In this document: positions 3,401-53,544 of the stretch, piece by piece
How the letters are laid out: every line of letters starts with the position of its first letter
Position numbering within the stretch: the stretch's first letter is position 1
NCBI GenBank assembly: GCA_029006155.1
Contig: JAQXGF010000033.1
Coordinates: 1-64,000, forward strand
Length of the DNA stretch: 64,000 bases
Reading direction: 5' to 3'
Origin: Lachnospiraceae bacterium
GTDB taxonomy: Bacteria; Bacillota; Clostridia; Lachnospirales; Lachnospiraceae
Notes under the pieces: model-generated
What the model saw: only the letters and a program-made list of their open reading frames with translations
Told to the model about the DNA's origin: nothing
Databases searched by the model: none
Made by a program: the position numbers and the translations under genes

Positions 3401-3450
3401 TTCGGCCTGTCTGTTACGATGCCAGCTTTTCATAAACGAGCAACTTTAAA

Positions 3451-3516
3451 AGCAAGTCTTCCCTGCTACTTATTGTTTTTCACAATCGAAGCAGGGGACT
3501 TGCTTGATTCGGTTAA
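3451..3516 (+). repeat. Intergenic hairpin repeat, family C copy 1
   Basis: A hairpin with arms AGCAAGTC..CCCTGCT and AGCAGGG.GACTTGCT lies between larC and larE. Its right arm and the following bases up to TTGATTCGGTTAAA recur at 36977-37010, and the tail GATTCGGTTA also ends the family-B copy at 28.8 kb. It may also act as a weak terminator for larC. Confidence 0.6.
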
Positions 3517-3596
3517 ATCAGTTATAGATTTTATGGATCATGCGCTAAACTAGCAATAAATTCGCTGAATTACAATATTGAAAGGATCATCCCAAA

Positions 3597-28698: not shown

Positions 28699-28730
28699 CT
28701 GTGTGCTCCTTTCTGATAATACAGTCAAAA

Positions 28731-28800
28731 CGGATATTCGCAATCCATCCATGCAGCTCTGCTGACAGGGTCTAGCTTCGCTACTTGACTGATTCGGTTA
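28731..28800. repeat. Intergenic repeat, family B copy 1
   Basis: Bases 28731-28787 match 47311-47367 with three differences. The copy ends in CTGATTCGGTTA, shared with the family-C hairpins. Confidence 0.75.
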
Positions 28801-30011: not shown

Positions 30012-31748
30012 TTACAGCATTTCGTTGATCATTGCAAGTACTTTCTCTCCAAGTGCCGCAGACTTCGCATCCGCATCCTCCAGGGACGTACCCTTGATCC
30101 CATAGTAGAATTTTACCTTCGGTTCGGTACCGGACGGACGCACGCACAACCAGGCATCGTCAGTCAGATCAAAGTACAGCACGTTGGAGTTCGGAAGTCC
30201 GGTCGGCTTCACCGCTCCGGTCGCCAGATCTTTGATCGTATCCGCCTTGTAATCGCGGAACGAGGTTACCTGATAGTCTCCGATCTGTGTCGGCGGATTC
30301 TTTCGCAGGGTATCCATGATCTCCTGGATCTTCTGCAGTCCCTCAATGCCCTTCAGGCTGACGGACTTGATGTCATCCTTATAATAGCCATAACGCTCAT
30401 ACATCTCGACCATCGCATCCCAGAGTGTCTTGCCCTGTGCCTTATAGAAAGCGGCTGCCTCTGCCAGCGCCATGGACGCCACGATCGCGTCCTTATCTCT
30501 TGCATGTGTTCCGATCAGGCAGCCGTAGCTCTCCTCAAATCCGAACAGATACTCACCTTTTCCGCTCTGCTCAAAACCAAGAATCTGCTGTCCGATATAC
30601 TTGAATCCGGTCAGCACTTCGATCAGTCCTGTCCCGTAGTATTTCGCAATCGCATCTGCCATATTTGTCGTTACGATCGTTTTGATGAGATATCCGTCAT
30701 CCGGCAGTCCCTTCAGTGCCTTTGTCTGGCCGATCTCATAATCTGCCAGCAGACAGCCGGACATATTTCCGGTCAGGGTATGATACTCTCCGGTCTTTGC
30801 ATCCTTTACACGCACACCAAGGCGGTCGGCATCCGGATCCGTCGCCAGTACCAGATCCGCATCAATCTCCTTTGCCAGCTTCAGTCCAAGGGTAAATGCC
30901 TCGTCTGCCTCCGGGTTCGGGTAGCTGACGGTCGGAAAATCTCCGTCTGGAAGCTCCTGCTCCGGAACAACATATACATGCTCAAAGCCAAGCTCTTTTA
31001 AGACACGGCGAACCGGAATATTGCCGGTGCCATGCAGCGGCGTATAGACAATTTTCAGATTTGCGCTCTCCTGTCTGATCGTCTCCGGATGCAGCACACG
31101 GCTCTTTAAGCAGGCGATAAACGCATCGTCAATCTTCGCTCCGATCACTTCGTAAAGTCCGGCTGCGACTGCCTCCTCCTTGCTCATCGTCTTTGCACAG
31201 GTATAGCCCGGCACCTTCTTTACCTCATCCATGATACCGGTATCGTGCGGCGGTGTGATCTGTGCGCCGTCCTCCCAGTATACCTTGTATCCATTGTACT
31301 CTGGCGGATTGTGGCTCGCGGTGATGTTGATACCTGCGATACAGCCAAGCTGTCTCACTGCAAAGGACAGCTCCGGCGTCGGACGAAGGGACTCAAACAC
31401 ATACGCCTTAATCCCATTTCCGGCCAGGGTCAGCGCTGCAAAATCTGCAAACTCCGGAGACATATGTCTGGAATCGTAAGCGATCGCCACGCCCTTCTTC
31501 TGTCCGCCTGCACGGAGAATATAATTGGCCAGTCCCTGTGTCGCACGCTGTACGACATACTGATTCATACGGTTTGTACCGGCGCCGATAATACCACGCA
31601 GTCCGGCTGTACCAAACTCCAGTGCCGTATAAAAACGCTCCCGAATCTCTTTATCATCGTTCTCAATCGCTTTCAGCTCCGCTCTCGTCGCCTCATCGAA
31701 ATACGGATCATTCAGCCATTCCTCATATGCTTTTCTATAGTCTTCCAT
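30012..31748 (-). CDS. pgcA: Phosphoglucomutase/phosphomannomutase (PgcA type)
   Basis: Interconverts hexose 1- and 6-phosphates for cell-wall and glycan precursors. The phosphoserine loop is TASHNPPEYNGYKVY, the metal loop ATDPDADRLG, the sugar loop FGFEESYG and the phosphate loop RPSGTEPKVKFY. 578 residues. GGAGGGG precedes the ATG. A TATAAT with a TGG extension lies about 80 bp upstream. Confidence 0.95.
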   Translation of the reverse strand: MEDYRKAYEEWLNDPYFDEATRAELKAIENDDKEIRERFYTALEFGTAGLRGIIGAGTNRMNQYVVQRATQGLANYILRAGGQKKGVAIAYDSRHMSPEFADFAALTLAGNGIKAYVFESLRPTPELSFAVRQLGCIAGINITASHNPPEYNGYKVYWEDGAQITPPHDTGIMDEVKKVPGYTCAKTMSKEEAVAAGLYEVIGAKIDDAFIACLKSRVLHPETIRQESANLKIVYTPLHGTGNIPVRRVLKELGFEHVYVVPEQELPDGDFPTVSYPNPEADEAFTLGLKLAKEIDADLVLATDPDADRLGVRVKDAKTGEYHTLTGNMSGCLLADYEIGQTKALKGLPDDGYLIKTIVTTNMADAIAKYYGTGLIEVLTGFKYIGQQILGFEQSGKGEYLFGFEESYGCLIGTHARDKDAIVASMALAEAAAFYKAQGKTLWDAMVEMYERYGYYKDDIKSVSLKGIEGLQKIQEIMDTLRKNPPTQIGDYQVTSFRDYKADTIKDLATGAVKPTGLPNSNVLYFDLTDDAWLCVRPSGTEPKVKFYYGIKGTSLEDADAKSAALGEKVLAMINEML

Positions 31749-31876: not shown

Positions 31877-32050
31877 GCCAGTTTCGAGCAGCAGCAAAAC
31901 GTAAAGGCAGATCGAAGCAAATTTATTTGCTGAAAGCTGCATTTACGTTTTGGGATGGACGGAACGTCCATCAGCCACAGACAGGAGATGCCGCCGGCAT
32001 CGGATAGCTTGCGCAGCAAGCGCGTCTGTGGCCTGCGCCCGAAACGTCCG
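31877..32050 (+). repeat. Structured intergenic repeat, family A copy 1
   Basis: About 174 nt in the gap between pgcA and the CotS-like gene. Stems: GTTTCG/CGAAAC (ends), AAAACGTAAA/TTTACGTTTT enclosing GCAAA/TTTGC, GATGGACG/CGTCCATC, and CCACAGAC/GTCTGTGG enclosing GATGCCG/GGCATC and GCTTGC/GCAAGC. All stems recur with compensatory changes in copies 2 and 3. This copy points opposite to its neighbours. Confidence 0.85.
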
Positions 32051-32070: not shown

Positions 32071-33051
32071 TCACCGCTCCAGCATCCGCACAAACGCCTC
32101 CTGCTTCTCCATCTGCGCATTGAGCACCTCCAGCTTTTCCAGAAAACGTCCGGAGATCCATGCCTTGTTCCCTCCATAATAATAATTTGCCAGCTTCCGG
32201 AATTTTTCCGGATAGCGCATCCGTATGTACAGAAGCCGCCGCTCCTTCGCTGTCACCGGGCGTGTCCGTATGTACTGCTCCAGCATCCGCATGCCAAGCC
32301 GCTGGTTCCAGTCGTGTTTCTCTAAAATTTTCCGCATGAACCGGTACAGATCCGTGATCTGGCAGTCATACCGGCATTTGGAAAAATCGGTCGTCGCCAT
32401 TTCATAGCCACACAGCAATACATGGTGGTGGTCATAGTCTCCATGGCAGACACTGCCTGTATGTTCCAGATGATCTCCATCCCCGCCGCACGCTTCCAGA
32501 CGCCCCACCGCTTCTTCCGCCTGCGCATAATAGGCCGGAAAACACTGCAGAAACAGTCGTTCAAACGTTCCCTTCTGATTGCGCCTGCGGATAAAAGAAC
32601 GAATCTTGCGCAACTCCGCGTTCTGCGCCTGCAGGCTCTTTGTCAGTGGCGGCGCACTGAAACGCTCCATCAGCACAGGCTCGTCCGGAAGCTGCATCAG
32701 CCGGTGGATCCGGGCCAGATTCTCTACCGCAGCTAAAATTTCACTCTCGCTTGTCGTATCACATTCTCTTCCCACATACCACTCCCGCACCAGATAGCGG
32801 TTGCCATCCCGATCTTCGGAAACCAGTTTTCCCTCCTTATTCGGCACAATCCAGTCTACCCGCTGATATCCGCCTTCCCGCATCCGCTCCATCACCCGGT
32901 TCTGAAATTCTGCCTTATGTTCGGAACAGGTGCAGTCGCACAGCATCCGGATCCCCTGTGGTGTGTCAAAAATGTACGATCCTCTGCCACGGCGCAGCTG
33001 CCCTGCCTCCAGCTCATACTGCTCCAATACTTTCAGCGCTCTCTCATTCAT
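32071..33051 (-). CDS. CotS-like spore coat kinase family protein
   Basis: Aminoglycoside phosphotransferase/choline kinase fold; CotS relatives are spore coat proteins in Bacillus. Recognisable parts are RGRGSYIFDTPQGIRMLCDC at the N-terminus, the kinase-like catalytic loop VCHGDYDHHHVLL and the later KCRYDCQITDLYRFMRKILE. About 326 residues. The ATG at 33051 has GAGGG 5 nt upstream; an in-frame ATG at 33063 after GGAAAGGGAA is the alternative. Whether it phosphorylates anything is unknown. Confidence 0.82.
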   Translation of the reverse strand: MNERALKVLEQYELEAGQLRRGRGSYIFDTPQGIRMLCDCTCSEHKAEFQNRVMERMREGGYQRVDWIVPNKEGKLVSEDRDGNRYLVREWYVGRECDTTSESEILAAVENLARIHRLMQLPDEPVLMERFSAPPLTKSLQAQNAELRKIRSFIRRRNQKGTFERLFLQCFPAYYAQAEEAVGRLEACGGDGDHLEHTGSVCHGDYDHHHVLLCGYEMATTDFSKCRYDCQITDLYRFMRKILEKHDWNQRLGMRMLEQYIRTRPVTAKERRLLYIRMRYPEKFRKLANYYYGGNKAWISGRFLEKLEVLNAQMEKQEAFVRMLER

Positions 33052-33195
33052 TCGATCCCTCATTTCCCTTTCCTGCCAGCCCCAAACGATATGCCCCGCC
33101 ACATTCCTGCGCCCGCGACGCCCCTGCCGCTTCCGCCACCGTGCGCATCCTTGCGAAGCGTTCTTGCTTTACAGAACGTACTTTCCTGTAAAGTA

Positions 33196-36821: not shown

Positions 36822-36976
36822 GTTTTCCCCCTTTTTCTCTTGTCTGCACACCCTTATACCCTTCTCGCAAAATCAAGCATAAAAAGATTCCGGGTGTACC
36901 TCTGTCACACCTCGCATGTCATCGCCTTTCTGCCAGTTCATTAACGGAAAGCTACTCCGCAGCTGATTGCTTTGCG

Positions 36977-37010
36977 CAATTGAAGCAGGGGACTTGCTTG
37001 ATTCGGTTAA
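36977..37010. repeat. Intergenic repeat, family C copy 2
   Basis: GAAGCAGGGGACTTGC and the following TTGATTCGGTTAA match 3488-3515; the left hairpin arm seen in copy 1 is lost here. Confidence 0.6.
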
Positions 37011-37042
37011 AAAGGCTGCCACAGAACTTCTCTGCGGCAGCC
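37009..37042 (-). terminator. Second hairpin ahead of the ABC exporter genes
   Basis: GGCTGCC.CAGA pairs with TCTG.GGCAGCC, followed by TTTTT on the minus strand; a strong terminator shape. Confidence 0.7.
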
Positions 37043-41402: not shown

Positions 41403-42446
41403 TTATCCAAAGTAATCAATCTGCATTGCATGGCGTACATCATGCAGCGTCTCCGCTGCCTTCGCACGTGCCCGCTCGCTTCCTGCCTTCAGCATTGCAT
41501 ATACCTCGTCGGTATGTGCCTCCCAGTATTTCCGGCGTTCCCGGATCGGCCCGAGCTCCGCCTGAAGCACGTTGTTCAGGAACTTCTTCACCTTGACATC
41601 GCCAAGTCCGCCGCGCGTATAGTGTGCCTTGAGCTCGTCCAGATTCTGATAATCCGGCAGGAACTCCTGAAAATGCTCCGGACGGCAGAACGCATCCAGA
41701 TAAATGAATACCGGATTGCCATCTACCTTTCCCGGATCCTCCACACGCAGGTGATTCGGGTCGGTAAACATCGACATGACTTTTTTCTTGATCTCATCCG
41801 GCTCATCGGAAAGGTAAATGCAGTTGCCAAGCGATTTACTCATCTTTGCCTTTCCGTCGATCCCCGGCAGACGCAGACATGCCTGATTGTCCGGAAGGAC
41901 GATCTGCGGATCCGTCAGTGTCTCACCGTAAACGGTATTGAACTTATGCACGATCTCCTTGCACTGCTCCAGCATCGGCAGCTGATCCTCACCGACCGGA
42001 ACGGCCGTCGCACGGAATGCTGTGATATCTGCCGCCTGGCTGATCGGATAACAGAAGAAACCGACTGGAATGCTCGCCTCAAAATTCCGCTGCTGAATCT
42101 CGGCCTTTACGGTCGGATTGCGCTGTACGCGGGAAACCGTCACAAGATTCATATAGTAGAACGTCAGCTCCGTCAGCTCCGGAACCATCGACTGAATAAA
42201 GATCGTAGACTTTTCCGGATCGATGCCGCATGCCAGATAGTCCAGCGCGACCTGAATGATATTCTGTCTTACCTTCTCCGGATGCTCCGCGTTGTCGGTC
42301 AATGCCTGTGCATCCGCAATCATAATATAGATCTCATCGAATTCGCCGGAATTCTGCAGTCTGACACGTCTTTCCAGTGATCCTACATAGTGTCCTACGT
42401 GAAGTCGGCCGGTCGGCCGGTCTCCTGTTAAAATTACCTGATTCAT
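41403..42446 (-). CDS. trpS: Tryptophanyl-tRNA synthetase
   Basis: Charges tRNA-Trp. The class I signatures are [17 protein letters not shown] (HIGH type) and KMSKSLGN. 347 residues. AAGGAG lies ahead of the ATG. No T-box element is seen; instead the 170 nt before the ribosome site are a family-A structured repeat in the sense direction, so that element would be in the trpS leader if read through from the regulator gene upstream. Confidence 0.96.
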
Positions 42447-42480
42447 TTTACTGTATTACTCCTTTTTGTAATTATTGCAG

Positions 42481-42650
42481 ATGTTCTGCGCGCAGGCCAC
42501 AGACCTGTTTGCTTCGCAAACTATCCGCTGCTGACGCAGCTCCTGTCTGAGGCTTATGGGCGTTCCGCCCATCCCAAACGATAAATACAGCCCCTGCCAA
42601 ATAAATTTGTCAGTGTCTGTCTTTATCGTTTGCTGCTGCTCAGAACTGGT
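42481..42650 (-). repeat. Structured intergenic repeat, family A copy 2
   Basis: Fills the whole gap between the PucR-type regulator stop (42653) and trpS. Minus-strand stems: GTTCTG/CAGAAC, AAACGATAAA/TTTATCGTTT, GGGCG/CGCCC, CAGAC/GTCTG with GCTGC/GCAGC and GTTTGC/GCAAAC inside. These are covariants of the copy 1 stems; the loops GCAGCAGC, GGGATG and CGGATAG are unchanged. Confidence 0.85.
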
Positions 42651-42652
42651 TA

Positions 42653-43741
42653 TTAATATTCCTGATTCTCCATATACTTCATGTATTTGACTACCATCAG
42701 CGCGATCTTAAACGTGATCGCATCCTCGAAGATGCGTAGATCCAGTCCGGTCGACTTCTGAAGCTTGTCCAGACGGTAGACGAGCGTGTTCCGGTGGATG
42801 TAGAGCTGACGGGAAGTCTCTGAGACATTCAGGCTGTTCTCAAAGAATTTGTTGATCGTGATCAGTGTCTCCTCGTCGAAGTCATCCGGTGACTTGCCGT
42901 CGAAGATCTCACGGATAAACATTTTGCAGAGCGGGATCGGCAGCTGATAGATCAGACGGCCGATGCCAAGCGAGCTGTACGCGATCACAGAACGCTCCTC
43001 GAAGAAAATCTTGCCGACATTTAAGGCCATCCGCGCTTCCTTATAAGAGCGGGATACCTCTTTGATCTCTCCTACGACGGTACCGTAAGCGACGAGCGCC
43101 TCCTTTTTCTTCTCCTCACCAAGGGAATCGAGAATCATCCCTGCGATGCGCTCCATCTCTGCGCTGCCATCCTGTGCGCCGAGCTCCTTGACGACGATGA
43201 TGCTCTTCTCATCGACCGCCGTGATAAAGTCACCCGACTTGGAATTGAACAGAGCGCGAACGGTCTCGAGGGAGTTGTTCTCCTTCTCATTGCTGATCTC
43301 CAGAATGAACACAACGCGGCGTGCCTCGGTATCGATATGCAGCTTCTTTGCACGGTTGTAAATGTCGACGAGCAGCAGGTTGTCCAGCAGCAGGTTCTTG
43401 ATAAAGTTATCTTTATCAAAACGCTCCTTATAAGCGACCAGAAGGTTCTGGATCTGAAATGCTGCCATCCGCCCAACCATATGGACATCGTCACTGTTGC
43501 CGTTTGCCAGAAGAATATATTCCAGCTGGTGATCGTCAAACACCTTAAAAAACTGACATCCACTCACTACCTGGCTGTCTGCCGGTGAATCTGCAAAACT
43601 CAGCACGGAATCCCGAAAGCCTTCCGCCTCAGGAAATGTCGTTGCAAGCATGATACCCTCTGTATCGAGCACACACAAATCTACTCGGCTGATCGCCTTC
43701 AGCCCATCCAGTGTCGTCTGTAAAACCTGATTTGAAATCAC
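42653..43741 (-). CDS. PucR/CdaR-type transcriptional regulator
   Basis: The C-terminal PucR helix-turn-helix is LNVSETSRQLYIHRNTLVYR with the preceding LITINKFFENS. The middle GGDEF-like region and N-terminal part (RVDLCVLDTEGIMLATTFP) fit the sugar-diacid regulator class. 362 residues. The start is a GTG at 43741 with AGGAGG 8 nt upstream; the nearby ATG at 43749 is out of frame. It lies next to glnN, which is suggestive of nitrogen control but unproven. Ligand unknown. Confidence 0.85.
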   Translation of the reverse strand: MISNQVLQTTLDGLKAISRVDLCVLDTEGIMLATTFPEAEGFRDSVLSFADSPADSQVVSGCQFFKVFDDHQLEYILLANGNSDDVHMVGRMAAFQIQNLLVAYKERFDKDNFIKNLLLDNLLLVDIYNRAKKLHIDTEARRVVFILEISNEKENNSLETVRALFNSKSGDFITAVDEKSIIVVKELGAQDGSAEMERIAGMILDSLGEEKKKEALVAYGTVVGEIKEVSRSYKEARMALNVGKIFFEERSVIAYSSLGIGRLIYQLPIPLCKMFIREIFDGKSPDDFDEETLITINKFFENSLNVSETSRQLYIHRNTLVYRLDKLQKSTGLDLRIFEDAITFKIALMVVKYMKYMENQEY

Positions 43742-44066
43742 AGTCCCATCCTCCTTTTTCCTTCTCAATTTACCCCAAAATACTGCCGCCCCGAATGACC
43801 GGAACCGGCGCCCGGATGGGTGCCCCCATACATCCTCCGGATGGTATTTCATCCCCACAGCTTTGCCGCAGGGCAGTTATTTTTACTCAACTGGTATTAT
43901 TTTAATATATACGTCCAAAAAAATCAATCAAAATTGTGGATAATTACTAATCATATTTTATAAATTACAAATATCGCCTTTATAAGGCCACATTCGTTCA
44001 TATTTTATTCACGTTTCATTCAAGCAATTTTCAAGAAGCACTCACGTTTTTTTCACGATTTGCGAT

Positions 44067-47305: not shown

Positions 47306-47440
47306 TAAAGCGGACATTCGCAATCCATCCCTGCAGCTCTGCTGACAGGGCCTAGCTTCGCTACTTGTAAGATCATAAGGAATCTTCCCGCAAGCGGGCC
47401 CCTCCTTATGATATGTCATGAACGCAGTCGCTTCGCGATC
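47306..47440. repeat. Intergenic repeat, family B copy 3, interrupted by hairpin H
   Basis: 47311-47367 match copy 1 (28.7 kb); 47415-47440 match the right part of copy 2 (29.3 kb). The 45-bp hairpin sits between these parts, where copy 2 has no insert. Confidence 0.75.
47370..47414. repeat. 45-bp hairpin element H, copy 1
   Basis: ATCATAAGGA and TCCTTATGAT enclose an inner CCCGC/GCGGG stem. It differs from copy 2 at 51.6 kb by one base in 45. Confidence 0.85.
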
Positions 47441-49432: not shown

Positions 49433-51499
49433 TCAAACCTCCAGTATATATCCCTCTCTCGTAAACAGTGGAATCTGATCGAGCGGTGTCGCCACGGTCA
49501 CGCTCTGGCCACCCTCGAAGACTTCCTTCGTCCATACGTTCGTCCACTTTGCGCCAGCCGGAAGGTAAACATCCTTCTTCTCCTCACCGCGCTCCATGAC
49601 CGGTGCCACGAGGATGTCCGGGCCGTACATGAACTCTTTTTCATTGTCCCAGCATGCCGCATCCTCCGGGAAGTCGTAGAACAGCGGACGCATGACCGGT
49701 GTTCCCTTTTCGTGTGCTTCCTTCATCCGCTCTCTCGTGTACGGACGCATGTTCTCACGGATCGTGATGTACTTCTTGCAGATCTCATAGACCTCTTCGC
49801 CATAGGACCAGATCTCGTTCGGCGCGCCGGATACGCACTCAGCTCCTCCGGTCGTCCCGTACTGCGGCTGATATGGCATACGATAGCCGTGCAGTCTCAT
49901 GACCGGACAGAACGCACCATACTCGAACCAGCGGACAAATACTTCATGGTAGGATTCATCGTAAATGTTTGCGCCGAAGAATCCGCCGATGTCCGTCGTC
50001 CACCACGGAATACCTGCGATTCCCATATTCAGTCCGGCTGCAAACTGATTCTGAAGGCTCTCAAATGTAGAGTGAATATCTCCGGACCACACGAGTGCGC
50101 CATATTTCTGGCTGCCTGCCCATGCACAGCGCAACAGGTTCACGATGTTCTCCTGTCCCTCTGCCTTCATGCCATCAAAGAAGGTCTTTGCGTACATCAC
50201 CGGATATACATTTCCGATCTGTACGTTCGGGCCGAGGTGATAACGGTAGTTCTCAAAATCATAAACGGTGTACTCCGGCTCTGCCTCATCCAGCCAGAAG
50301 ATCTTGACACCCTTGTCGTAATAATTTTTCTTAATCTTGTTCCAGACATATTCCCGTGCTTCCGGATTCGTCGGGTCGTACTGGATCGTGTTGCCCATGT
50401 AGGTATTGTCGATGCGGACGCCCTTCTCGACGCGGGTCAGCAGTCCCTTCGCCTTCATCTCTTCGAAGTTCTCGCTCTTGTAATCGACCATCGGCCATAC
50501 GGATACCATGAGCTCGATGCCCATCTCCTTCAGCTCTTTGATCATCGCATCCGGATCCGGCCAGTACGTCGGATCAAATCTCCAGTCCCCCTGCTTCGGC
50601 CAGTGGAAGAAATCGACTACGATGACATCGAGCGGAATGCCACGGCGCTTGTACTCTCTCGCTACCTCCAGCAGCTCCTCCTGCGTCTGATAGCGCAGCT
50701 TGCACTGCCAGAAGCCAAGTCCGTACTCCGGCATCATCGGTACCTTGCCGGCTGCATCGGCGTATGCCTCCTCGATCTCTGCCGGCGTATCGCCTGCGGT
50801 GATCCAGTAGTCCAGCTTCTTTGTGGACTGTACCTGCCAGGTCGTGATGTTCTTATTGAAGCTCACTCTTCCGATCGCCGGGTTGTTCCAGAGAAATCCA
50901 TAGCCAAGGGAAGAAAGGGCGAACGGGACACTCGCCTGTGAATTGCGGTGCGCCAGCTCCAGCTCTGCACCCTTGATATTCAGGAAATCCTGCTGGTACT
51001 GTCCCATGCCGTAGAGCTTCTCCTTCGGGTTGGACACAAACCGCATCGTCAGCTGATAATCGCCGCCGATGATCGGCTTAAACTCTCTCGCCTCGACCTC
51101 CAGGGAGCTCGTCGTATCCGCAAACATATCCTCGCGGTTCCGCACGTACTCCTCCAGAAGCAGCTCACCCTTCTGATTGTAAAAGAAGAGCTTTCCGATG
51201 TTGTTGATGACGGCGCGGATCTTTCCGTTTACGATCTCCGCGGAATACTCGTGGATCGTCACTTTCGCGTCGGTCTTTTTCGGGTTGCCCTCGAGTGCCC
51301 ACAGCTCCTGCGGCATCTCCGGCATCTTCGATGCGCGTACACGCAGGCTGTTCTCGCCCCACGGCTCTACGATCACGCGCTCCGCATCATAGCGGTAGTG
51401 CAACGCGCCGTCTTTTTCTTCAAAATAGCCAAGCAAAAACTTGTTGTCAGAACGAAAATCACCAGATTTATGTTCATCCTTTTTGGTAAAATCGGTCAT
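49433..51499 (-). CDS. GH31 alpha-glycosidase (alpha-xylosidase-like), copy a
   Basis: A close paralogue of the next gene (long identical blocks such as LAHRNSQASVPFALSS and MMPEYGLGFWQCKLRYQTQE), 688 residues. The catalytic Asp residues are in IFWLDEAEPE and WSGDIHSTF. It has an N-terminal extension of about 25 residues. AGGAGG lies 8 nt before the ATG. Four bp separate the two genes, a tandem duplication with likely split specificity. A family-A repeat forms the upstream gap to the importer genes. Confidence 0.88.
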   Translation of the reverse strand: MTDFTKKDEHKSGDFRSDNKFLLGYFEEKDGALHYRYDAERVIVEPWGENSLRVRASKMPEMPQELWALEGNPKKTDAKVTIHEYSAEIVNGKIRAVINNIGKLFFYNQKGELLLEEYVRNREDMFADTTSSLEVEAREFKPIIGGDYQLTMRFVSNPKEKLYGMGQYQQDFLNIKGAELELAHRNSQASVPFALSSLGYGFLWNNPAIGRVSFNKNITTWQVQSTKKLDYWITAGDTPAEIEEAYADAAGKVPMMPEYGLGFWQCKLRYQTQEELLEVAREYKRRGIPLDVIVVDFFHWPKQGDWRFDPTYWPDPDAMIKELKEMGIELMVSVWPMVDYKSENFEEMKAKGLLTRVEKGVRIDNTYMGNTIQYDPTNPEAREYVWNKIKKNYYDKGVKIFWLDEAEPEYTVYDFENYRYHLGPNVQIGNVYPVMYAKTFFDGMKAEGQENIVNLLRCAWAGSQKYGALVWSGDIHSTFESLQNQFAAGLNMGIAGIPWWTTDIGGFFGANIYDESYHEVFVRWFEYGAFCPVMRLHGYRMPYQPQYGTTGGAECVSGAPNEIWSYGEEVYEICKKYITIRENMRPYTRERMKEAHEKGTPVMRPLFYDFPEDAACWDNEKEFMYGPDILVAPVMERGEEKKDVYLPAGAKWTNVWTKEVFEGGQSVTVATPLDQIPLFTREGYILEV

Positions 51500-51539: not shown

Positions 51540-51779
51540 CGGACGTTTCGTGTGCAGGCTGCAGATGCGTTTGCTCCGCAAACTATCCGCTGCTTCGCAG
51601 CTTCTATCTGCAGCTGATGGGCACGGGTAGCGCCTGATAGCGCGCAGATCATAAGGAATCCTCCCGCAAGCGGGCCCCTCCTTATGATATATTCCGCCCA
51701 TCCCAACATGTAAATACAGCCCGTGCCAAGTAAACTTGCCACGTTCTGTCTTCACATGTTGCTGCTGCACGAAACTGGT
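51540..51779 (-). repeat. Structured intergenic repeat, family A copy 3, with insertion
   Basis: Minus-strand stems: GTTTCGTG/CACGAAAC, AACATGT/ACATGTT with CAAG/CTTG inside, GATGGGC/GCCCATC, GCTGCAGAT/ATCTGCAGC with GCTGC/GCAGC and TTTGC/GCAAA inside. About 70 bp including hairpin H interrupt the loop of the GATGGGC stem. It lies in the leader of GH31 copy a. Confidence 0.85.
51646..51690. repeat. 45-bp hairpin element H, copy 2
   Basis: 44 of 45 bases match the copy at 47.4 kb. It lies in the apical loop of a stem in the family-A repeat. Confidence 0.85.
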
Positions 51780-51788
51780 GAACTCATC

Positions 51789-52649
51789 TTACTCCTTTAC
51801 GGCACCTGCCGTCAATCCTCCTACGATATACTTCTGTAAAAAGACGAACAGAAGGATAACCGGAAGGACGAGGATCGTACCGTAAGCCATGATACAGTTC
51901 CATTTGGTTCCCCATTTACTCTGGAATTTGTAAATGTTCGCGGTCAGCGGTCGCATCTCCGGCTTTACGTTGAACGTCATGGAGTAGGCCAGATCGTTCC
52001 AGCCGTTCAGGAAGGAGATAACGACAACGGTGATGATACCGGTCTTGATCGCCGGGATCATGATCTTGAAGAAGGATCGGAAGACGCCGCAGCCGTCGAT
52101 TCGGGCCGCGTCATCCAGTGCGGTCGGCACGCTCTTGAAATACGGACGGAGTGTCACGACGATGAACGGAACAGAACCGGAAGAAATCGCGAGTGCCGGT
52201 CCAAGGTAAGTGCCGAGCAGATGCAGCTTGTTGAAAATCAGGTACATCGGGGTCAGCATCAGGGAAGCCGGAAGCATCTGGGTGACAAGGAAGGTCAGAA
52301 GAAAGCCCTTGCTGCCCGGTACACGGTAGCGTCCCATGCCATAGGCTGCCGGTACACCGAAGGTCATCGAAAGCACCATAGAGAGCAGTGCGATAAACAT
52401 ACTGTTTTTCAGAGACTTCAAAAACTCTGCATCCGTAAAGTTCTCAATCCACGGATCCAACGTAAAGTTATGCGGATAATAGGTCACGATCTTTCCGAAG
52501 GACTCTGCATCGGACTTAAAGGACATCGCTACCAGCCAGTAGATCGGAAACAGGAATACGATGGCAATCGCAATCGCGATGATACAGTTCAGAAGATTTT
52601 TGCGGCGCTCCTTCGAGTTCAGCACCGTTTCTTTTGCCTTTTTATTCAT
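51789..52649 (-). CDS. Carbohydrate ABC importer permease (MalG type)
   Basis: Inner-membrane permease of a CUT1 sugar importer, 286 residues, six membrane helices. The cytoplasmic EAA-type loop is VPTALDDAARIDGCGVFRSF followed by KIMIPAIKTG. The ATG at 52649 overlaps the upstream stop (TAATATG) with AGGAGG 9 nt away. No ATPase gene is in the locus, so a shared MsmX-type ATPase encoded elsewhere probably energises it. Confidence 0.93.
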   Translation of the reverse strand: MNKKAKETVLNSKERRKNLLNCIIAIAIAIVFLFPIYWLVAMSFKSDAESFGKIVTYYPHNFTLDPWIENFTDAEFLKSLKNSMFIALLSMVLSMTFGVPAAYGMGRYRVPGSKGFLLTFLVTQMLPASLMLTPMYLIFNKLHLLGTYLGPALAISSGSVPFIVVTLRPYFKSVPTALDDAARIDGCGVFRSFFKIMIPAIKTGIITVVVISFLNGWNDLAYSMTFNVKPEMRPLTANIYKFQSKWGTKWNCIMAYGTILVLPVILLFVFLQKYIVGGLTAGAVKE

Positions 52650-52650
52650 A

Positions 52651-53544
52651 TTAGTCATCCTCCTTCGAAATCAGGCGCAGATAGAACAGTCCGATGACAA
52701 ACAGACAGCAGAACAGTACCATCGCGGTCGCCGAGCCAAGTGAAAACTCATACTGCTTGAAGGAAAGCGTATAAGAATAAGTACCGAGTACATCCGTCGC
52801 ATTCAGCGGGCCACCGCTCGTCATAACGAACATCAGGTCGAATGCCTTGAACGTATAGATAAATCCGAGCATCAGTACGGAAAGGATCGCCGGCTTCATC
52901 AGTGGAAGTGTGATGTAGCGGAAACGCTGTCCCCATCTCGCACCATCCACGCTGGCACTCTCATAGAGTTCCTGTGAAATACCAGTCAGTCCGGACGTCA
53001 GAAGGAGCATATTGAACGGAATGCCGACCCAGCAGTTTACCGCAATGACTGCCGCCATCGCAGTCGAGCCGTTCAGCAGCCACTCGATCGGTGAGGAAGC
53101 CAGTCCGACCTTCATCAGCAGGTCGTTGATGACACCACTCGATACGTCGAACATATTCTTTCCAAGCAGAGCCGTAACGGACATCGGCATCATGTAGCCG
53201 ACGAGCACCATGCCACGGATCGGACCGGATAAGGTAAATTTCTGAGAGAAAAATAATGCAAAGATAAATCCGATTGTAAACTGGAAAATCAGACACCAGA
53301 TCGTAAATACGAACGTATTTTTCATAACGAGCAGGAAGGTGTCATTGTGGAACAGGTCGATGTAGTTCTGAAATCCGACAAAGACCGAAGTACCGGAAGC
53401 AAAGGTCTTTACATTTACATTTTTAAAACTCAGGATAATATTGTATACAAGTGGATAGCCGAGGATAACGAGCATATAAATAAAGCCCGGCAGGATAAAC
53501 AGATACCCCTCTCTTCTTCGTTTTGCTGCTATTGTAGATTTCAC
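52651..53544 (-). CDS. Carbohydrate ABC importer permease (MalF type)
   Basis: Partner permease of 297 residues with six membrane helices; the EAA loop is ISQELYESASVDGARWGQRF. A GTG at 53544 with AAAGGA upstream is chosen; an in-frame ATG at 53571 lacks a ribosome site. It is followed at once by the second permease and preceded by the binding-protein gene. Confidence 0.92.
   Translation of the reverse strand: MKSTIAAKRRREGYLFILPGFIYMLVILGYPLVYNIILSFKNVNVKTFASGTSVFVGFQNYIDLFHNDTFLLVMKNTFVFTIWCLIFQFTIGFIFALFFSQKFTLSGPIRGMVLVGYMMPMSVTALLGKNMFDVSSGVINDLLMKVGLASSPIEWLLNGSTAMAAVIAVNCWVGIPFNMLLLTSGLTGISQELYESASVDGARWGQRFRYITLPLMKPAILSVLMLGFIYTFKAFDLMFVMTSGGPLNATDVLGTYSYTLSFKQYEFSLGSATAMVLFCCLFVIGLFYLRLISKEDD

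Follow-up and report, generated by a model that had tools for sequence, protein, structure and literature searches.

The window, by which we mean the whole stretch of 64,000 nucleotides analysed here from a Lachnospiraceae bacterium, contains three copies of a structured intergenic repeat that we call family A. The first (31878..32050, plus strand; cmsearch 193 bits) lies between a phosphoglucomutase-type gene (30012-31748) and a phosphotransferase-like ORF (32071-33102) and is antisense to both. The second (42478..42649, minus strand; 183 bits) is flanked by a gene for a PucR-type regulator (42653-43858) and one for a class I tRNA synthetase of the Trp/Tyr type (41403-42446), and the third (51540..51778, minus strand; 157 bits) by genes for an ABC permease (51789-52658) and for a glycoside hydrolase of family 31 (49433-51499); these two are sense to both of their neighbours. 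All three copies stand between ORFs, family A carries no gene of its own, and these are the only strong full-length matches to the covariance model in the 64-kb window. That model was built from 12 own-genome copies, which include copies 1 and 2 but not copy 3. By Pfam, from which the flanks were named, the genes adjoining the three copies are mutually unrelated (metabolic, transport or regulatory), and no nuclease gene was found among the six. Against Rfam, the window gave no match at the gathering threshold, the elements none with E≤10, and the family-A copies of eight loci none with E≤1. Kinship with HEARO, IS605 or IscB, one of the options raised in the earlier note, finds no backing in the Rfam search or in the six neighbour genes.

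All three copies fold much better than their dinucleotide shuffles (z of -6.1, -6.6 and -7.9 for copies 1, 2 and 3, with 0 of 200 shuffles as good) and they have a common shape, in which an outer stem, P1, closes a four-way junction with a long, interrupted arm (P2), a short hairpin (P3) and a branched arm (P4, with sub-hairpins P4a and P4b). The fold and the pair counts place these parts in copy 1, all on the plus strand, as follows. P1 spans 31881..32045 and pairs GTTTCG (31881-31886) with CGAAAC (32040-32045) and, further inward, GC with GC and GCAG with CTGC. P2 (31895..31952) pairs 31895-31905 with 31942-31952 and has inner stems at 31907-31910/31937-31940 and 31916-31921/31926-31931. P3 (31954..31972) is the hairpin GATGGACG-GAA-CGTCCATC, whose loop is, in other copies, the place of inserted modules. 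P4 (31974..32032) pairs 31974-31982 with 32024-32032 and carries P4a at 31987-32001 and P4b at 32007-32021. That the three copies share one structure, as had been proposed from the letters alone, is thus supported by the folds as well as by the model matches.

The covariation of family A is far beyond chance. In a sequence-only MAFFT alignment of the 12 own-genome copies, scored against the structure derived from copy 1, both sides changed in 33 of the 62 pairs and 95.9% of cells were paired; double-change cells numbered 70, compared with 17.8 in shuffles and 3-13 when the pairing was slid. The covarying stems named in the earlier note are real. Two points of that description have to be corrected: GCAGCAGC, taken for a loop, is part of the inner strand of stem P1, and the loops vary across the genus, since among 69 divergent copies only 9 of the 38 interior unpaired positions are conserved at 90% or more (19 of the 38 at 75% or more).

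The family is not limited to these three copies. At E≤4.8e-9 the covariance model recognises 30 separate sites in the own genome, including the 12 copies from which it was built; within the genus it has matches in 33 of the 36 genomes searched. In other families of the order, represented by one genome each, none of 24 genomes matched. A wider scan, in which seven candidates per genome were scored, gave a match in at least 12 of 392 genomes, two of these in the same genus; the strongest matches outside the genus among those scored came from two genera of the same family, g32 (132 bits) and g82 (102 bits), and from one other family (63 bits). The exact P3 motif is present in 14 named stretches from metagenome-assembled Lachnospiraceae, Oscillospiraceae and Clostridiales. 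Copy 2 had no blastn match among plasmid and phage records, and the P3 hairpin and the end sequence had no exact match among viral contigs.

How are the copies placed relative to genes? Counted on longest ORFs, not on annotation, the downstream gene is in sense for 84 of 144 copies and reads the other way for the remaining 60. On the claim that orientation is not tied to a gene, the counts show a weak bias in co-directional contexts (60 sense versus 38 antisense, from the 144 copies with both flanks called). A family of cis-acting riboswitches or leader RNAs could be suspected from the own-genome copies, 11 of 29 of which are in sense to the next ORF and 29-48 nt upstream of its start, and from the fact that some copies start, by eye, close downstream of promoter-like sequence. 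However, unrelated genes adjoin the three window copies, a downstream gene in the opposite direction is common (60/144, as above), and young copies lie between target duplications (see below). Orientation and target duplications tell against a riboswitch or leader as the chief explanation, and we consider it most improbable. In three intergenic regions (L048/L121, L248/L284 and L124/L271), two species carry family-A elements in opposite orientation, probably through separate insertions. An inversion in place was considered; for L248/L284 and L124/L271 the alignments showed shifted positions, which makes separate insertions look likelier.

The clearest evidence on the nature of the element comes from relatives. 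A young subfamily in two genomes, G010 and G035, is near-identical at many sites and has exact borders, GTAACAGTTCAGAACAGC ... GCTGTTCTGAATAGTTAC, over 176 bp, and its elements are flanked by 8-bp direct repeats, for example ATTATTTT, TAATGTTC and AAATTCGA. Among 36 elements of the G010/G035 type, counted after removal of one overlapping duplicate, the flanks were identical at 8/8 positions in 12 and at 7/8 or more in 18, where 2000 shuffles gave means of 0.3 and 0.8 and maxima of 3 and 5. Flanks identical at 8/8 were also found in 7 of 17 elements of G030 (shuffle maximum 2) and in 1 of 16 of G008 (shuffle maximum 1). The signal is weak in G008 and in G023; in the latter, 8 of 16 copies have recognisable ends and 2 of these 8 have 7/8 flanks; with explicit ends, shuffles reached 6/8 or more 0.5 times on average and 3 times at most. 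No duplication signal is seen in the own genome, where flanks agree at 7/8 or more in 2 of 23 copies versus 1.3 in shuffles. The duplicated target sites of the relatives are mostly AT-rich. In G010, GTAACAGTTCAGAACAGC has 132 matches at up to two mismatches (reversed control, 0) and is paired at both ends; terminal inverted repeats are present in the young relatives, and the own-genome ends are degenerate. The young family-A elements in the relatives are MITEs, and from homology we infer mobility for the copies of the own genome and of G023 as well. The MITE-like option of the earlier note is upheld by the inverted ends, the 8-bp target duplications in relatives, the multiple copies and the genus-wide presence: family A is a real, strongly structured, genus-wide MITE family.

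Which enzyme could move it? IS66 ends begin GTAA, and IS66 makes 8-bp duplications. At locus L242, in genome G015, we found a divergent IS66-type protein of 520 aa accompanied by an ORF of 102 aa. The protein scores 41 bits with PF03050 (cut-off 23.1) and 140 bits with the NCBIfam IS66 model, which is below its cut-off of 180. This element has inverted ends GTTACTATTCACGGTC/GTTACTATTCACAGCT and an 8-bp duplication, ACTATTTT. A contig of a viral collection (L375) encodes a protein 45% identical to that of L242, between ends GTTACTATTCACAGTAAA/GTTACTATTCACAACCTT and with the 8-bp duplication TTTTGCGC; the first 12 bases are common to the two elements at both ends, and a fragment in G008 ends like them. 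The end scans demanded duplications of 8/8 (L242) or at least 7/8 (L375) and similar ends starting GT, so these properties hold by construction; the sequence GTTACTATTCAC, shared at both ends, was no scan criterion. Both IS66-type elements' ends read GTTACTATTCAC, and the MITE right end in G010 starts GTAACTATTCAG. The ends compared for IS66 mobilisation, GTTACTATTCA versus GTAACTATTCA and GTTACAGTTCA, come from two elements only, with the protein in 3 of 47 genomes. G015 also carries a young-type family-A copy (L071:975-1152) that has, by eye, AAATGTTA on either side.

The search for the mover covered PF03050 in 6 and then 47 genomes, and PF01610 and PF00872 in 36 genomes each. A scan of 30 IS66-type loci for such ends next to identical 8-bp flanks brought up L242 alone. 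ISL3 and IS256 movers were tried and rejected, a matching end pair being found at 0 of 27 loci, with single weak look-alikes only. In stretches of G010 with unpartnered ends, part of the 132 matches, no transposase ORF stood out by eye. The IS66-type protein is absent from G000, G010, G035, G030 and G023, and because it is present in just 3 of 47 genus genomes, the inference of the mover rests on the ends and the duplication length. A literature search for IS66-related MITEs with 8-bp target duplications turned up no paper. From the sequences, the IS66-type clade of L242 and L375 is the best candidate mover, and family A is probably IS66-mobilised.

The second issue is how the fold is kept. 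In two young subfamilies the rate of change is 4-11 times lower in stems than in loops, with per-site values (stem/loop) of 0.0235/0.0997 in 36 copies and 0.0082/0.0875 in 13 copies, shared changes being counted in each copy and the stem being defined by folding the consensus, a choice that biases stem rates downwards. Among 132 stem changes, 65 gave a Watson-Crick pair, 17 a G-U pair and 50 a broken one; in the larger subfamily 41 of the 47 broken changes fall at the outer ends (positions 1-5 or 163-176). Thirty-five close copy pairs, amounting to 1714 base pairs with P1 left out, showed 15 double changes, and single changes to G-U (13), to A-C (8) and to other combinations (19). Transversions make up 146 of 435 both-sided changes, and these cannot pass through G-U.

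For the G-U and A-C counts, copies outside 158-180 nt were left out; 121 copies were used, or 69 after those at least 92% alike were dropped. Genus-wide, G-U takes 1.8-3.2% of helix cells, and in the 15 own-genome copies counted, 4.3%; the share of A-C is 1.2-2.0%, the top value of which includes one misaligned pair. In the control, 37 tRNAs, G-U reached 6.65% and A-C was absent, the pairs being those that ARAGORN brackets, so that mismatches may be hidden. By cells, G-U is about twice as frequent as A-C (75 to 37 and 133 to 62); as distinct column events, the two are equal (37 to 39). In the first description family A was a selected RNA structure and not a decaying repeat. That the structure is maintained is clear; that the selection acts on RNA is one possible reading of it.

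The main rival of the explanation that we favour accepts the same MITE and ascribes its fold to selection on RNA: the transcribed cloverleaf would serve the host, for example as a stable UTR insulator or a protein-binding RNA, or would serve the element itself, and the compensatory changes would be ordinary RNA evolution. Since the MITE part is common to both, their odds overlap. An RNA reading of family A is possible, and as an account of the fold we hold this one to be a contender at less than even odds. It is favoured by the excess of G-U over A-C in sense copies (89 to 32), which is not found in antisense copies (22 to 20; Fisher p 0.013, or 0.18 without P1), a difference that argues for some selection at the RNA level, and by the excess in own-genome copies (37 to 13). 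The bias towards sense in co-directional contexts and the 9 interior unpaired positions conserved at 90% or more point the same way. So do two pairs of copies (L062/L063 and L093/L070) whose partners occupy the same junction between genes but in different species: the partners are 91% alike and their differences are compensated; the DNA behind them is largely unalignable, and for this reason their likeness also counts against template switching alone. However, antisense copies keep the fold too (87.0% Watson-Crick cells versus 87.8% in sense copies), and the highest score with the model belongs to window copy 1, an antisense copy that also helped to build it. Moreover, G-U in family A reaches between one third and two thirds of its share in tRNAs, and the distinct column events show no excess of G-U.

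Other traces concern the DNA itself. In 139 copies, counted after exclusion of short elements and of copies with short flanks, a partial repeat of the copy's own 5′ part (score of at least 30) lies downstream in 29 and upstream in none (0/139), and 24 of the 29 are closer to their own copy than to the best of 12 others. The own 3′ part is matched by the downstream flank in 6 of 139 and by the upstream flank in 1 of 139, at the same score. At L095 the target duplication comes first and the downstream partial repeat after it, an order that slippage of replication from one duplication to the other would give. Downstream partial 5′ copies (P2, sometimes more), mostly with their own private stem sequence, were noted at L040, L102, L272, L073 and L093, among others, and at L370 and L374. 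Forms shrunken internally to 41-127 bp, which lack most of the core, are likewise found between duplications (8/8 in 2 of 17, at least 7/8 in 6 of 17). Together, the scars and the shrunken forms point to hairpin DNA that trips replication. Template switching has been proposed (PMC8794818) to create and maintain hairpins.

An alternative is that the fold of the same MITE is needed as single-stranded DNA, its hairpins marking the DNA for transposition or replication. Integron cassette sites and the ends of IS200/IS605 are folds that act as single-stranded DNA. The scarcity of G-U pairs and the slight strand preference agree with this alternative, and slippage-like scars and internal deletions suit hairpin DNA. 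However, inverted ends and 8-bp duplications suit an enzyme that cuts and inserts double strands, and the 41-127 bp forms sit between duplications without most of the core, although they may have shrunk after insertion. We judge this alternative unlikely.

The explanation that we prefer, to which we give a probability of about 0.72, is that family A is a non-autonomous MITE of ~170-176 bp, moved by an IS66-type transposase, with hairpins kept by template switching together with some selection. In the host it lies between genes, in many cases where an mRNA would be untranslated. It would be moved in trans by the transposase of divergent IS66-type elements, which themselves end in GTTACTATTCAC and make 8-bp duplications, and the window copies would be old members of the family in which the target duplications are no longer recognisable. 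The inverted ends would form P1, closing the junction of P2, P3 and the branched P4, a core of nested hairpins. Mutations in a stem would be copied or corrected from the opposite arm through template switching during DNA replication, giving near-perfect hairpins. This upkeep is suggested by the rarity of G-U, the weak strand preference, the many transversional double changes and the slippage-like scars. Selection on the fold, for which support is weak, probably adds to it, at least in copies read in sense. In our view template-switch upkeep plus some selection on the fold is most likely.

Some family-A copies also contain hairpin modules. Copy 3 has a hairpin module of about 60-66 nt (M2) inserted in P3, which is present in several other own-genome copies too. 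The core of M2 in copy 3 (51646..51690, minus strand; repeat D14) is 98% identical to a stretch outside family A (47370..47414, minus strand), which lies inside another intergenic repeat. Two pairs of intergenic repeats were noted in the window, 28727-28787 with 47307-47367 (93% alike) and 3449-3517 with 36943-37011 (80% alike), the copy at 47307 being followed by M2; these two further repeat families have no Rfam match. Another covarying hairpin module (M1, ~51 nt) is found in P2, P3 or P4 of various family-A copies, three times in a 328-bp element of L164/L138 (L164:674-1001), and once, by eye, in an apparent arm of Clostridiales-1 type (L336:2949, minus strand). Its distribution looks as if hairpins were moving into hairpin loops. 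M1 was also noted at L149, L069, L106, L009 and L024.

Clostridiales-1 RNA (Rfam RF01699) has matches in 43 of 47 genus genomes, 40 over the cut-off, and 19 in the own genome. They measure ~160-175 nt and have several arms (L307-L336; the match runs from 1501 onward in most). Its flanking direct repeats agree at 7/8 or more in 14 of 29 copies, versus 3.6 in shuffles (maximum 9 in 300), and look ~6 bp long in several copies (range about 6-8 bp). Partial repeats of its own start lie downstream at L320, L322 and L332 (by eye). Its pairs (24 pairs, 22 sequences) comprise 513 Watson-Crick, 5 G-U, 0 A-C and 9 other; as an RNA control for the G-U counts it was dropped, being itself a repeat. The row for Clostridiales-1 in one table of PMC2864571 reads y, n, n. 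A literature search on Clostridiales-1 found no paper on mobility. The three letters of that row we take to stand for RNA, cis-regulatory and switch.

Clostridiales-1 thus resembles family A as a repeat in the same genus with several arms, flanking direct repeats and downstream partial repeats, but it has other end sequences and its direct repeats look shorter. RF01699 does not score at the family-A copies of the window and of the eight loci. At a weak family-A match in another genus (L371) it reaches 32.5 bits over the same span (cut-off 48), and at L374 the family-A match is closely followed downstream by weak matches to RF01699. At L314 and L315 (G035 and G010), an apparent family-A start was seen by eye no more than ~10 bases behind a Clostridiales-1 copy. 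Judged by these sequence features, Clostridiales-1 may be a second structured MITE. We can go one step further, as a conjecture that we would sooner doubt than accept: family A, Clostridiales-1 and the hairpin modules would form one superfamily of modular cloverleaf MITEs in Clostridia, whose fold, as RNA or as single-stranded DNA, would be a working part and whose modules would move into the hairpin loops of other elements. If so, a part of the catalogued orphan structured RNA would be mobile DNA, with covariation that comes from DNA replication as well as from selection.

Family A is easily mistaken for a working RNA, as its fold is kept while its letters change. Covariation is commonly accepted as proving that an RNA functions. 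Family A shows it strongly, and its young relatives have demonstrably jumped; G-U pairs are few, strand preference is weak, and in the same genomes a catalogued orphan RNA, Clostridiales-1, is a repeat too. This makes a question testable, namely what share of the covariation in repeated 'RNAs' comes from replication and what share from selection. With dozens of copies per genome, of different relative age, family A is a natural system for measuring it.

In conclusion, family A can be set beside three known systems. IS66 and its MITEs share with it the 8-bp target duplications, and the family-A ends, GTAAC or GTTAC, are near the GTAA of IS66 and similar to those of the two elements with a divergent IS66-type transposase; unlike IS66 elements, family A carries no gene. 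The guide RNAs of HEARO, IscB and TnpB likewise form a structured, RNA-like region on a mobile element, but family A differs from them in its 8-bp duplications, in matching no Rfam family and in the lack of a nuclease neighbour at the window copies. The bcr1 element of the Bacillus cereus group resembles family A in being a repeat, of ~155 bp, that is mobile, lies between genes and has a predicted RNA fold; its target, TTTAT, is a different one and 5 bp long.
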